From the NCBI RefSeq assembly GCF_000767465.1, contig NZ_CP009292.1, forward strand, positions 682,001-746,000: DNA of 64,000 nt. The letters are read 5' to 3'. Positions 17,338 to 22,437 of the stretch are shown here, one piece after another (position 1 is the first letter of the stretch; each line of letters opens with the position of its first letter). The position numbers were made by a program, and so were the translations under genes. The DNA is from Novosphingobium pentaromativorans US6-1. GTDB lineage: Bacteria; Pseudomonadota; Alphaproteobacteria; Sphingomonadales; Sphingomonadaceae. Below the pieces are notes generated by a model. It did not search any database and was not told the DNA's origin. It was given only the letters and a program-made list of their open reading frames with translations.

Positions 17338-19764
17338 ATGAATACGAGACTTCAAAGCAAGGCCATGTTCATCGGCGGCGTCTGCTTCAGCATGATCGCC
17401 TTTTCCGCAGCAGCCGCGGCGCAGGACGAAGCCGGTCAGGGCGGCGGAGAAACCTACAACAACGAAATCATCGTCACCGCCACAAAGCGCAACGAGTCCA
17501 TCCAGAACGTCCCGTTCTCGATCAATGCCCAGACGGCTGAAGCCATGCGGCGTTCAGGGGCCACCTCCATCGAGGACGTTTCCCGTTCCATTGCAGGCCT
17601 TACCGTCCAGAACCTCGGCCCTGGGCAGAGCCAGGTATCGATCCGCGGCGTTTCCGCCGGCCAGGTTGTGCGCGACCAGCCCGGCGTGAAGGAGCAGGTC
17701 GGCGTCTACATGGACGAGTCGGTCATCTCGCTGTCGCTCTTCACCCCCGATTTCGACCTGTTCGACCTTGATCGTATCGAGACTCTGCGCGGCCCGCAGG
17801 GAACCCTGTTCGGTTCAGGCTCCGAAGGCGGCACGGTGCGCTACATCACCAAGCAGCCCAAGCTCGGCATCGTCGAAGGCACCGTGGAAGCAGGCGCCAA
17901 TGTCCTGAAGGGCGGCGATGTCGGATATGACGGCAAGGCGGCTGTAAACCTTCCGCTGGGCGAAACCGCGGCGCTCAGGGTCGTGGGCTATGCCGAACAC
18001 TACGCCGGCTTCGTTGACGCGATCGGCCCGGCCGCGGGCAAGAACATCAACGACGGCAACCGCTACGGCGGTCGCGCCAGCCTCTTGTGGGAACCGAGCC
18101 CGGGCATCAAGGTCACCCCGCGCATCATCTACCAGGATATCAAGACCAACGGCTTCAACCGTGAGGATTCCTACCACCTCTATTACAATCCGCTGATCGA
18201 TGCCGCGCAGATCCTTCCGAAGCGCACGCAGTACCTCAAGCTGCGCGAGGAATTCCGCGACAAGACCACTCTGGCGGACCTGACCGTAAATGCCGATGTC
18301 ACCGACACGATCGCAGTGACCTCGGTCACCACCTATATCCATCGCAACATCCTGGTCGCCCGCGACGCATCGGCTCTCACCGGTTCGGTCTCGGTATCGC
18401 CCTTCGCCTTGGATCTGGGCGTAGACGGTTCGCTGGCGAACCTGCCTTCGGAACTTCGCGACAGGACGAAGCTCAAGCAATGGACCCAGGAATTGCGCCT
18501 GTCATCCACCGACAGCGGTCCGTTCCAGTGGGTCTTCGGCGGGTTCTACAGCCATGTCGACCGGACTTACGCGCAGCGCCTGCCCACCCCCGGATACGAC
18601 GCGATCGTCGATGCCGGCCTCGGTGCAGGAACTTCCGCATCGGTCGCCAATGGCTTCCCGGCAAATTCTCCCTACAACGCAGATATTCCGTATATCATCA
18701 AGCAGGCGGCGGTCTTCGGTGAGGCGAGCTACAAGCTGGGCCAGTTCAAGCTCACCGCGGGCGGCCGCTATTACGACTTCAAGGAAAAGCGCGACTTCAT
18801 ATCGGGCGGCATCTTCGCCAACGGCGACACGAATATTGGCGACAAGACCAGTTCCACGGGCTTCTCGCCGCGCTTCATCGCCAGCTATGAAGCCAGCCCC
18901 GATGTCACGCTGAACCTGCAGGCGTCAAAGGGCTTCCGCCTGGGCGGCGTCAACGATCCGCTGAATATCCCGCTCTGCTCTGGCGGGGCGACCGGTCCTG
19001 ACGCGGCGACGTACGGCAACCGTCCGACCTTCGACGACGAGACCTTGTGGAACTACGAAGGCGGCATCAAGGCGCATACCGGAGGGATCACCTTCAATGG
19101 CGCGGTGTTCCACAACGAGATCAAGAATCTCCAGGTCACCGCCGATGCCGGCAGTTGCTCCTCTCGCGTGCTGTTCAATGTGCCCAAGGCTCATACGACC
19201 GGTGTCGAGGCCGAACTCGCCGCCCGCCTCATGCCCGGGTTCGACGTGAGCGTGAACGGCAGCTACATCGACTCCAAGATCGACAGCACTGTCGTTGACG
19301 GCTCGGGCGCAGTCATTGCGGGTATCCGCAAGGGCAATCGTCTGCCCACCGTTCCGAAGTTCCAGATCTCGGCCTCGGCCACCTACGAAACCGAGATCAG
19401 CGACGGCATCGACTGGGCCTTCACGGCAAGCTACCAGCACGTCGGCAATCGCTTCACCCAGCTTGCGGACCAGGAGCCGGGCGCAGGATCGTTCACCAAT
19501 TCGATCTTCTACGATCCGGCAACCGGCGCTTTCGGAACCGGGGCCTACGACTTCGGGTCCTATCGCCTTCCATCTTACGACCTCGTCAATCTCTCGACGA
19601 GTGTGAACTTCGACCACGGCTTGTCCGTGTCGGTCTATGTCAATAACCTGCTGGACAAGAACGCCCTGATGTCACTGGATCGCGAGCGCGGCGGCCGGGC
19701 ACGGCTTGGATACAACATCGGAAGTCCGCGCAAGATCGGCATGACCGTGCGCAAGGAGTTCTGA
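17338..19764 (+). CDS. TonB-dependent outer-membrane receptor
   Basis: An 808-residue ligand-gated channel that uses TonB/ExbBD energy. It starts with a signal peptide (ending near AAAAAQ, residue 29), then a TonB-box-like EIIVTATKRNESIQNVPFSI, a plug domain (about 50-165) with LRGPQGTLFGSGSEGGTVRY, and a 22-strand type barrel ending in the expected Phe (VRKEF). There is no N-terminal STN domain, so it does not signal to a FecR. GGAGGGG precedes the ATG. It resembles the large sphingomonad group annotated for complex organic substrates rather than siderophores. The substrate is unknown. Confidence 0.93.
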   Translation: MNTRLQSKAMFIGGVCFSMIAFSAAAAAQDEAGQGGGETYNNEIIVTATKRNESIQNVPFSINAQTAEAMRRSGATSIEDVSRSIAGLTVQNLGPGQSQVSIRGVSAGQVVRDQPGVKEQVGVYMDESVISLSLFTPDFDLFDLDRIETLRGPQGTLFGSGSEGGTVRYITKQPKLGIVEGTVEAGANVLKGGDVGYDGKAAVNLPLGETAALRVVGYAEHYAGFVDAIGPAAGKNINDGNRYGGRASLLWEPSPGIKVTPRIIYQDIKTNGFNREDSYHLYYNPLIDAAQILPKRTQYLKLREEFRDKTTLADLTVNADVTDTIAVTSVTTYIHRNILVARDASALTGSVSVSPFALDLGVDGSLANLPSELRDRTKLKQWTQELRLSSTDSGPFQWVFGGFYSHVDRTYAQRLPTPGYDAIVDAGLGAGTSASVANGFPANSPYNADIPYIIKQAAVFGEASYKLGQFKLTAGGRYYDFKEKRDFISGGIFANGDTNIGDKTSSTGFSPRFIASYEASPDVTLNLQASKGFRLGGVNDPLNIPLCSGGATGPDAATYGNRPTFDDETLWNYEGGIKAHTGGITFNGAVFHNEIKNLQVTADAGSCSSRVLFNVPKAHTTGVEAELAARLMPGFDVSVNGSYIDSKIDSTVVDGSGAVIAGIRKGNRLPTVPKFQISASATYETEISDGIDWAFTASYQHVGNRFTQLADQEPGAGSFTNSIFYDPATGAFGTGAYDFGSYRLPSYDLVNLSTSVNFDHGLSVSVYVNNLLDKNALMSLDRERGGRARLGYNIGSPRKIGMTVRKEF

Positions 19765-19812: not shown

Positions 19813-19884
19813 TATCCTGCGCCGATTATCGCGGGTATCCGGCTGCTCTGGAGAGCGCCATTTTAGGCCTTGGCAATCGAATAT

Positions 19885-19929
19885 TTGACACTTTATATGT
19901 CAATAGTGTTTATGGCCGCGTTTTTGACA
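19885..19929. promoter_or_regulatory. AT-rich TTGACA repeats upstream of the MucR-like gene
   Basis: TTGACA (19885-19890) is mirrored by TGTCAA (19898-19903) and repeated directly at 19924-19929 within TTTTTGACAC. The block is clearly AT-rich compared with its surroundings. MucR/Ros proteins bind AT-rich degenerate sites and usually repress their own gene, so this may be an autoregulatory region. One TTGACA copy may instead be a -35 element. Confidence 0.4.
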
Positions 19930-19963
19930 CTCTCCTGCTCGCATTGAGCACTTTTCAAGTTGG

Positions 19964-20953
19964 ATGGATATGGCAGATTTCGACGCACGTCGCGCTTCAC
20001 TGGACCTTGTCACAGCCTTTGTGAACAACAACCAGCTCAACGCCTCTGAACTACCCTCGCTCCTCAGCGATGTATTCAAGGCTTTCCTGGAATTCGGCGA
20101 GGACGCGCCGATGCCTGCGCTTGCCAAGGCCGAGGCCAGGTCACAGGCCAATGCAGCAGAGGCAAAAGCCGCTGCAGCGCCGAAGCCTGAACAGCCGCCT
20201 GCCAAGGTCGCTGCCGAGCCGGCCAAGCAGGCCGCCGCGATCAAGCCCGCTGTTTCGGCCGAGGAATCGCACAGCGATCCGAACTTCGTCGTCTCTCTCA
20301 TTACCGGTGAGAAGTTCAAGACGCTCAAGCGTCACTTGCGCAAGCACGGGCTAACGGAATCGCAATACAAGGCTCGCTACGATCTGCCGACCGACTATCC
20401 GATCGTCGCAAAAGCCTATTCGGACCTCCGCCGCAAGGTCGCCAAGAACATCGATCGCAGCGGTCAAGACACCGCATCGGCTGCTCCGGCGGCTGCGGCC
20501 AAGACCGAAGACGCTGCGCCCAAGGCAGCCGCAAAGGCCAAGCCTGCTGCTGCAAAGAAGAGCGCCGCCAAACCCAAGGCCGCAACGAGCAAGTCCGCCA
20601 CCACCCCGAAGGCACCTGCCGCCAAGACTGCCAATACGACCGCCAAGCCGGCAGCTCCGGCGAGCGACGGCAGCAAGGACAAGGCAGCGCCCGCAGCGGC
20701 AAAGGCAGCTACGCCCGCCAAGAAGGCGAGCAAGGCTCCGGCCAAGAGCCGTGCCAAGAAGGCTCCGGCCGCCCGCAAGCCTGCTGCTGCCAAGACTGCT
20801 TCGGCTCCTGCTCCGAAGCAGGAGGCAGCCGCACCGGCAGCTAACCCCGCGACCGAAAGCAAGAGCGCTTCCGCTCCTTCGTCGGCTGACAGCTCGGCCA
20901 GCTCGAAACCGGCCCGCAAGGACCGCCCCAAGCTCTCGGCTGTATTCAAGTAA
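19964..20953 (+). CDS. MucR-family nucleoid/regulatory protein with histone H1-like tail
   Basis: A 329-residue protein. Residues 13-45 (LVTAFVNNNQLNASELPSLL onward) match the MucR oligomerisation helix region. A first Ala/Lys/Pro linker runs 46-100. Residues 106-165 are the Ros/MucR DNA-binding domain (GEKFKTLKRHLRKHGLTESQ, DLPTDYPIVAKAYSDLRR). The final 165 residues are a low-complexity Ala/Lys/Pro tail resembling histone H1 or AlgP. Typical MucR proteins are about 140 residues. The usual first two zinc ligands (Cys and Asp of CLEDG) are Ser111 and Thr114 here, while His124 and His128 remain; similar loss is known in some Mesorhizobium Ros-type proteins. A strong bidirectional terminator follows. 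Confidence 0.88.
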   Translation: MDMADFDARRASLDLVTAFVNNNQLNASELPSLLSDVFKAFLEFGEDAPMPALAKAEARSQANAAEAKAAAAPKPEQPPAKVAAEPAKQAAAIKPAVSAEESHSDPNFVVSLITGEKFKTLKRHLRKHGLTESQYKARYDLPTDYPIVAKAYSDLRRKVAKNIDRSGQDTASAAPAAAAKTEDAAPKAAAKAKPAAAKKSAAKPKAATSKSATTPKAPAAKTANTTAKPAAPASDGSKDKAAPAAAKAATPAKKASKAPAKSRAKKAPAARKPAAAKTASAPAPKQEAAAPAANPATESKSASAPSSADSSASSKPARKDRPKLSAVFK

Positions 20954-21008
20954 TTGTGGGAGACGGTTACGGCGTTGAATGGCGCCGTAACCGCTACCAC
21001 CAGAGCCA

Positions 21009-21052
21009 AAAAAGCCCCGGATGTCGCTGACTTGCGACATCCGGGGCTTTTT
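21009..21052. terminator. Strong bidirectional terminator between convergent genes
   Basis: A 19-base-pair perfect stem with arms 21009-21027 and 21034-21052, loop TGACTT, begins with an A run and ends with a T run, so it works from both sides. It separates the MucR-like gene (plus) from the M20 gene (minus). Confidence 0.9.
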
Positions 21053-21111
21053 CATGCCAGGGGATCGGGGGGAGCCAAGCGCCGCTTGCCTCCCCCCGCT
21101 TGAGGACTTTC

Positions 21112-22437
21112 TTATTCGCTACCCGCGACGGAGAGCACGGCCAGGGCCAGCGTTTGCGTTCCCTTGCGGATCGATCCTTCCGGATCGGGCGCAAAGAAGG
21201 GAGAGTGGTTTACAGGCGGCCTTTCGCCGTTCTTCACGTAGCCCGCGAGGACCTCGGGCTTGACGCCGCCGACACCGATGAAGACGGACGGAACACCGGC
21301 AGCGATGAATTCCGAGAAGTCCTCACTGCCTGACCCCGCCGCCATCGATTCCGGCGCAACCGACACGTTGCCGCCCACGGCGTCCTTTACGACTGCTGCC
21401 ACCTTGTCCGTCAGCTTGGGGTCGTTGTACACGGCCGCTGTCCCGTAAAGGTAGTCGATCGTCGGATCCGGGGCGCCTGCCATGGCGGAGACGGCCTCGG
21501 CCGTCTTCGTCACGCCAGCCATGAGTTGCTTGCGGATCTCGGGATCGTGCGAGCGCAAGGTAAGCTCAAGTACCGAGGAGTCTGGAATGATATTGGGTGC
21601 CGTGCCAGCGTGGAAGCTGCCCACGGTAATCACACCGAACTTGCTGGGATCGACTTCACGGCTGCGGATCGTCTGGACGTCGCTGACGAAGTGTCCGCCC
21701 ATTACGATCGGATCGATGCTCGAGGCCGGCATGGAACCATGTGCGCCCTTGCCGTTGAACGTAATCCGCACCTGATCCGAGGCCGATGACGACATGCCCT
21801 CCTTGAAGTGCACGTTGCCAAGGGCATCGGGCGCAACATGCGCGGCAAAGCCATAGTCCGGCTTTGGAAAGCGCTTGAACAATTCGTCGTCGAGCATCGC
21901 CTTGGCCCCGCTCACGGTTTCCTCGGCGGGTTGCCCCACGAACATGAGGGTGCCGTGCCACCGGTCCTTCATCGCCAGCAATGCCTCGGCCGTGGCCACC
22001 CACCAGGTCATGTGGATGTCATGCCCGCAGGCATGCGCAGTCGGCACGACTTCGCCGTTCACTTTCTGGGTGTAGCGGCTCTGATAGGGCAGGCCGGTCT
22101 TCTCAAGCATGGGAAGACCGTCAAGCTCCGTGCGCACCAGAACGGTCGGCCCGTCACCGTTGCGATAAATCGCAACGATGCCGGTGCCGCCAACCTTCTC
22201 GGTCACTTCGAAGCCGAGCTTGCGCATCTTCGCCGCAAGCAAGGCTGCCGTGCGCGTTTCCTGAAAGGCAACTTCAGGATGCGCGTGGATGTCCTTGTAA
22301 AGCGCATCGAGCTGCGGGTAGTTCTTGTCGAGCACCGCATCGATACGCGCAAGGTCTGCCTTGTAGTCCGGTGATGCCGCAACCGCCGGAGAGGCAGCCA
22401 GCCCTGCCAAAAGCAGCAAGAATGGTGACTTCTTCAT
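21112..22437 (-). CDS. Exported M20-family amidohydrolase (M20D aminoacylase type)
   Basis: A 441-residue metal-dependent hydrolase of amide bonds in N-acyl amino acids or similar. The first 20 residues (MKKSPFLLLLAGLAASPAVA) form a signal peptide, so it acts in the periplasm. Metal ligands are visible in HACGHDIHM, in GQPAEETVSG and in the final SGSEDFSEF; GKGAHGS marks the lid domain. The gene begins 14 bases after the stop of the TonB receptor on the same strand, so they should be one transcript. That suggests the receptor imports an amide-containing molecule which this enzyme cleaves outside the cytoplasm. Confidence 0.9.
   Translation of the reverse strand: MKKSPFLLLLAGLAASPAVAASPDYKADLARIDAVLDKNYPQLDALYKDIHAHPEVAFQETRTAALLAAKMRKLGFEVTEKVGGTGIVAIYRNGDGPTVLVRTELDGLPMLEKTGLPYQSRYTQKVNGEVVPTAHACGHDIHMTWWVATAEALLAMKDRWHGTLMFVGQPAEETVSGAKAMLDDELFKRFPKPDYGFAAHVAPDALGNVHFKEGMSSSASDQVRITFNGKGAHGSMPASSIDPIVMGGHFVSDVQTIRSREVDPSKFGVITVGSFHAGTAPNIIPDSSVLELTLRSHDPEIRKQLMAGVTKTAEAVSAMAGAPDPTIDYLYGTAAVYNDPKLTDKVAAVVKDAVGGNVSVAPESMAAGSGSEDFSEFIAAGVPSVFIGVGGVKPEVLAGYVKNGERPPVNHSPFFAPDPEGSIRKGTQTLALAVLSVAGSE

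Follow-up and report, generated by a model that had tools for sequence, protein, structure and literature searches.

MucR proteins are H-NS-like silencers of alphaproteobacteria, and the described ones are small (papers are cited here by PMC number, and what is taken from them refers to the available parts of their text). Both MucR and the zinc-free Ml5 of Mesorhizobium loti form ring-like multimers through their N-terminal helices, and both bridge and compact DNA, which makes Ml5 a precedent for zinc loss in an oligomeric protein of this kind (PMC11662661). The core target of the family comprises five AT-rich bases including a T-A step (PMC5693944). In a different setting, DNA compaction by MDP1 depends on a disordered tail (PMC5974015). 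Here we analyse a gene in which these features come together. It lies at positions 19964-20953 of a 64,000-nucleotide stretch of the Novosphingobium pentaromativorans US6-1 genome, hereafter the window.

On the evidence of its sequence we lean towards reading the product as a zinc-free paralogous MucR to which a polycationic arm has been added and which organises DNA in the manner of H-NS. The 329-aa protein matches the Pfam family ROS_MUCR (PF05443) over residues 11-163, scoring 96.9 bits where the cut-off is 25.4. This is its sole Pfam match at E up to 1, and NCBIfam gave no family match to it. When aligned to the solved Ros structure (2jsp), the two Cys of Ros stand opposite Ser111 and Thr114, and His124 and His128 fall into the His region, their spacing differing from that in Ros by a gap of one residue. 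Residues 166-329 form a tail of 164 amino acids with 62 Ala, 29 Lys and 20 Pro (68%) and a net charge of +24. At the other end, V16, F19, V20 and L30, L33, L34 fit the published key oligomerisation positions by conservation in the alignment, the positions being mapped by pattern (PMC11662661). The initial annotation, made from the letters alone, had described a MucR protein with an H1-like tail, with two leading ligands lost, both His kept and a MucR-like N-terminus, and each of these features holds. It had not recorded the linker of residues 46-93 that precedes the DNA-binding domain.

The frame is under selection, because the ratio of non-synonymous to synonymous substitution rates (dN/dS) for the whole gene is 0.15 relative to its orthologue in genome G186, a single pair. 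By segment, the same pair gives 0.17 for the N-terminal part, 0.29 for the linker, 0.06 for the Ros-type domain, under stronger constraint than any other large segment, 0.03 for the final 11 codons, and 0.17 for the tail, a rough value because it comes from a single pair with high dS and from an alignment of low complexity. With these ratios and the homologues at hand, an artefactual frame was rejected.

The initial annotation had presented the protein as a single fusion. By its sequence relatives it is a class and not a one-off event: the Ser-x-x-Thr/Asn site recurs in 75 of 86 homologues, so that the class including the query counts 76 members, 72 with Ser and Thr and 4 with Ser and Asn. Within it the first His never changes and the last one is rarely replaced (counts in Table 1). 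Named members come from Novosphingobium, Croceicoccus, Sphingomonas and Sphingopyxis (L009). The host genome itself holds three ordinary MucRs and a second member of the class that had gone unmentioned, the 370-aa paralogue P0021 on contig C1.

Sorted by the first two ligand positions, 153 distinct rows divide into 47 with Cys..Asp/Cys, 76 with Ser..Asp and 30 with Ser..Thr/Asn. Quick trees of these 153 rows were built on 106 and 104 columns, with 19 and 16 starred branches of 150. They leave out L147-L150, rows identical over the part used and any frame that did not match the domain pattern; of the 86 homologues, 33 had been chosen by hand. The Ser..Thr/Asn class forms one side of a branch with a Shimodaira-Hasegawa-like approximate likelihood ratio test (SH-aLRT) value of 85, and of 83 with the two ligand letters masked; we regard this support as moderate, the columns being few. 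A starred split (97) groups the class with 56 Ser..Asp rows, whose named loci all belong to Sphingobium, Novosphingobium or Sphingomonas.

The tail is the most conspicuous part of the protein. Its best 120-residue stretch is 78% Ala, Lys and Pro, and its composition is not a matter of chance, because the runner-up among the window's 114 open reading frames of 120 aa or more, a count that includes the present one, reaches 36%. Being long, predicted disordered and rich in Lys, Ala and Pro, it qualifies as H1-like, a likeness in composition and not in descent. Across the class, tails measure 39-234 residues (median 190.5), carry a positive net charge in 76/76 members (minimum +1) and reach at least 100 aa in 74 of 76, P0027 and P0083 being shorter. 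Sequence within the tails can barely be aligned and their length is highly variable. P0027, a 212-aa protein from a metagenome-assembled genome, shares 163 of its first 170 residues with P0021 and has a tail of 39 residues, possibly through a truncated assembly. P0068 departs from its near relative P0070 midway in the tail and has no end peptide, where truncation or a sequencing fault is again possible. Both cases speak against a fixed tail, and faults aside they are, like the poor alignability, what one would expect if the tail were tolerated low-complexity sequence without selected function. We consider this improbable in view of a net positive charge in every member, a conserved end peptide in most, a tail dN/dS of 0.17, the lack of a DNA repeat array that could drive expansion, and the survival of the tail in both orthologues. 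Repeat expansion was rejected on its own account: one array was found (22-base unit, 2.4 copies, score 30) and the four Ala codons are used 20, 20, 14 and 8 times. Tail loss in close relatives would also count against the initial annotation. Both same-locus orthologues, in G186 and on plasmid Mpl of Novosphingobium sp. PP1Y, retain the long tail and the end peptide, and the exception P0027 sits in the paralogous branch.

Tails of at least 80 aa occur in 29 of the 30 Ser..Thr/Asn rows, 29 of the 76 Ser..Asp rows and 2 of the 47 Cys rows; those of the Ser..Asp rows from Methylobacterium are short (5-38 aa). The idea that zinc loss causes tails found no support, as the rows had been collected through their similarity to tailed queries and an independent-pairs test ran short of pairs. 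Since long tails and Cys loss can each occur without the other, we claim no causal link between them. A MucR of Rhodovibrio sodomensis (L083) has the canonical Cys..Asp site and a 278-aa tail of net charge +40 with 40% Ala, Lys and Pro, apparently a separate gain.

What had been overlooked entirely is the end of the tail, a peptide of the R-x-K-L-S-P-V-F type. The pattern [KR]..L[STKAF][PAVM].[FY] stands at the extreme C-terminus of 70 of the 76 class members, where 0.005 are expected from shuffled tails, and in none of the 76 Ser..Asp or 47 Cys rows. It is missing in P0002, P0027, P0058, P0068, P0074 and P0083, of which P0058 fits a looser form by eye. Related tail peptides occur among the Ser..Asp rows: [RK]x[KR]L[SG] in 13 of 76 (0.44 in shuffles) and RMAR in 7 of 76 (0.02). 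All these patterns were written after inspection, and the shuffles gauge composition-driven chance only, among related sequences that are not independent. A Cys..Cys MucR of the same genome (L003, G000:C4) ends in KRKKLGVAFGSADVS, which resembles the class peptide and includes KRKKLGVAFG near the C-terminus. A resemblance to sliding-clamp peptides or to the tip of single-stranded DNA-binding protein (SSB) was also weighed for the end peptide and dropped, as the letters do not fit.

Can a Ros-type domain without its leading ligands still fold and bind DNA? Because Ser111 and Thr114 replace the leading ligands of the Cys2His2 or Cys-Asp-His2 sets of prokaryotic zinc fingers, we keep the protein out of the zinc-finger group. 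By structure prediction the region nevertheless adopts the Ros-type fold by which we class it as a DNA-binding domain, and it is predicted to do so without zinc, in line with the zinc-free Ros fold envisaged at the outset. Second looks with VIA aligned 18 and 17 chains only. One could also suppose that the domain no longer reads DNA and that the protein modulates the ordinary MucRs of the cell through mixed multimers; three such MucRs are present in this genome, both leading ligands are gone and the last His varies. The constraint on the domain, its Ros core in the prediction and the zinc-free DNA binding of Ml4 and Ml5 (PMC5693944, PMC9779718) leave this scarcely probable.

Returning to the DNA organiser with a polycationic arm, a mechanism can be sketched. 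The N-terminal helical pair, judging from its conserved residues, would assemble multimers, perhaps mixed with the ordinary MucRs of the host. The Ros-type domain, with a hydrophobic core in place of zinc, would read AT-rich DNA with T-A steps, as its fold and the examples of Ml4 and Ml5 suggest. The disordered Lys-rich tail may add non-specific DNA contacts, raising affinity and favouring bridging or compaction, and the terminal peptide, given its conservation, might dock onto a partner or back onto the multimer. The assignment as an H-NS-like silencer is one of working alike, made by homology to MucR and Ml5. In these terms the nucleoid-structuring role proposed in the initial annotation is plausible. 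Properties of published MucRs do not carry over automatically: MucR2 and MucR3 of Sinorhizobium meliloti bind DNA without bridging it (PMC13297338). The H1-like tails of AlgP and PhaF can also position storage granules (PMC9239181). The latter raises an AlgP-like granule-positioning role here, since the 154-aa KPAA-rich tail of AlgP is needed for even spacing of polyphosphate granules and is of similar composition (PMC9239181). We hold this to be very unlikely: no granule-binding module is recognised, ROS_MUCR being the one Pfam match, and the available text on AlgP mentions no similar end peptide (PMC9239181).

Where such proteins are carried might hint at what they organise. Within the order, full-length members of at least 237 bits turned up in 3 genomes out of 396 sampled (two each in the own genome, G000, and in G186, one in G333), the next match having 122 bits; all three belong to the 33 genomes listed for the genus, the own one among them, and the order-wide counts are lower bounds, the best few first-look candidates being scored per genome. 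Orthologues of the window gene with gene order kept are the G186 protein (349 aa) and the one on PP1Y Mpl (351 aa, unannotated in the record). Among the 60 listed of 418 plasmid records matching the query, those at 60-80% identity are Mpl and pCME4A9II of Croceicoccus marinus, and on the latter the class member has a ParB-family gene some 5.7 kb downstream of it. Behind the C1 paralogue, and on its strand, come genes for toprim/DUF7146, ParB_N/HTH_ParB and an AAA_34 helicase and two Phage_integrase genes, and orthologues of the toprim and ParB-like genes lie downstream of the C1-type paralogue in BW1 and N. malaysiense. This locus (L150:1-9227, G000:C1) looks like an integrated plasmid-like module; its AAA_34 helicase has 736 aa where that of L149 has 1465, and one of its two tyrosine recombinases is cut by the locus edge.

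These observations would suit a refinement of the reading preferred here, in which class members work for large plasmids or integrated elements. As an element-borne stealth silencer or maintenance factor, such a protein would cover AT-rich cargo in the manner of Sfh and Pmr, or partner a neighbouring ParB-like protein in partition or condensation. The plasmid copies, the company of the C1 paralogue and of the pCME4A9II member, and the rare, patchy distribution all agree with it. On the other side, the neighbours of the window copy are receptor- and peptidase-like and not element genes, two plasmid matches at 60-80% identity among those listed are few, and ordinary MucR genes are common on plasmids too. 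Nor did contig C2 give a match to the RP-C or RPA replication families, for which reason it is not called a plasmid; RPA is present on C3 and C5, and no RP-C was found in the own genome. Taken together, we rate the element role as rather unlikely. Somewhat less doubtful, and still tentative, is the wider proposal that the Ser/Thr members make up a lineage of their own, one of zinc-free bacterial chromatin proteins borne by elements. In it, a MucR multimer with H1-like arms and a conserved docking peptide at their free ends would serve large plasmids and integrated elements of Sphingomonadales to condense or silence the DNA of these elements. The second class member of G186 (L148, G186:C19), which has no end peptide, sits on a 7.8-kb contig that also carries a Tn3-type transposase domain, and its protein end is identical to that of P0002, named Novosphingobium mathurense. 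A phage origin was rejected, as five phage records match P0021, each partially, and the one of them read closely, P0088 of an Erythrobacter phage, is of the Ser..Asp type without a long tail. Erythrobacter phage vB_EliS_R6L encodes a 133-aa Ser..Asp MucR without a long tail (L153:2297-2698), and MucR relatives occur on 38 viral contigs (L154-L191).

The upstream gap of 199 bases is AT-rich near the gene, and its 60-mer at 19875-19934 ranks in the top 0.18% of the window by AT content. Conserved blocks surround ATTTGACA and CAATAGTGT in two orthologues, and the genome contains the pattern ATTTGACAYTNWA a single time. The window copy also has an inverted repeat, TTGAC-N9-GTCAA (19885-19903), which is absent from the two orthologues. 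This AT-rich, partly conserved region suggests that the gene may regulate itself. A simple consensus scan for promoters and terminators listed none, the strong downstream hairpin included.

Table 1 Features of the locus, in window coordinates
Feature	Coordinates	Strand	Basis
Upstream neighbour, 808 aa, looks like a TonB-dependent receptor (by eye)	17338..19764	+	Order kept in G186 and PP1Y Mpl
AT-rich stretch (65% AT), candidate promoter/operator	19875..19934	+	Blocks conserved in two orthologues
Coding sequence, Ser/Thr-class MucR with basic tail	19964..20953	+	ATG start, 329 aa
N-terminal helical pair, MucR oligomerisation region, residues 8-43	19985..20092	+	AlphaFold2 helices 8-22 and 27-43
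Ala/Lys/Pro-rich linker, residues 46-93	20099..20242	+	Composition; mostly low predicted local distance difference test score (pLDDT)
Ros-type DNA-binding domain, residues 94-165, predicted zinc-free	20243..20458	+	Ros alignment, structure prediction
Ser111 codon, first ligand position	20294..20296	+	Alignment to Ros; codon checked
Thr114 codon, second ligand position	20303..20305	+	Alignment to Ros; codon checked
His124 codon	20333..20335	+	His in 76/76 class members
His128 codon	20345..20347	+	His in 70/76; Asn, Tyr or Arg in 6
Disordered Ala/Lys/Pro tail, residues 166-318	20459..20917	+	AlphaFold2 low pLDDT, composition
Conserved peptide KDRPKLSAVFK, residues 319-329	20918..20950	+	Class conservation
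Second hairpin after the gene	20956-21000		Fold of 20950-21060
Strong hairpin, candidate terminator	21009..21052	+	Fold of 20950-21060, z -9.95
Downstream neighbour, 441 aa, looks like an amidohydrolase/peptidase (by eye)	21112..22437	-	Kept in G186

How does the class compare with what has been described? Its family and zinc-free state are already known, Ml4 and Ml5 being the precedent; the long basic tail with a conserved end and the possible link to elements are new. Among the matches listed in the open-licence literature no class with a long basic tail and a conserved end peptide is described, and the 2022 family review, as far as its text is available, does not contain the terms sphingo, Novosphingobium or lysine. 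Compared by description, Ml5 and Ml4, both of M. loti, share the Ros/MucR architecture and the ability to fold and bind DNA without zinc, whereas neither a long basic tail nor a conserved end peptide is described for them in the available texts (PMC11662661, PMC5693944, PMC9779718). The H-NS-like xenogeneic silencers MucR of Brucella abortus and Sinorhizobium fredii have the N-terminal oligomerisation helices, the C-terminal Ros domain and the ROS_MUCR match in common with the protein; the text available gives Cys-Asp-His ligands for MucR of B. abortus and a C2H2 motif for MucR1 of S. fredii, unlike Ser111 and Thr114 here. Cys-ligand rows in general differ by their mostly short tails. The Ser..Asp MucRs of Sphingobium, Novosphingobium, Sphingomonas and Methylobacterium share the change of Cys to Ser at the first ligand, and those of the first three genera often have long Ala/Lys/Pro tails and in some cases related peptides, but they retain the Asp and do not carry the end pattern of the class. 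To our knowledge AlgP, PhaF and MDP1 have no MucR/Ros domain. The likeness to these proteins of Pseudomonas (AlgP, PhaF) and mycobacteria (MDP1) lies in their H1-like disordered tails (PMC9239181, PMC5974015). Sfh, Pmr and Acr2 are likewise horizontally carried, plasmid-borne copies of silencer families (PMC7074111), but of the H-NS or MvaT families, and the term MucR is absent from the available text of that review; the element link, if true, would bring the MucR family into the range of plasmid-carried silencers. A zinc-free lineage with a polycationic arm and a conserved tip would offer a natural experiment on the effect of a histone-tail-like arm on a bridging protein, with short- and long-tailed relatives at hand for comparison.
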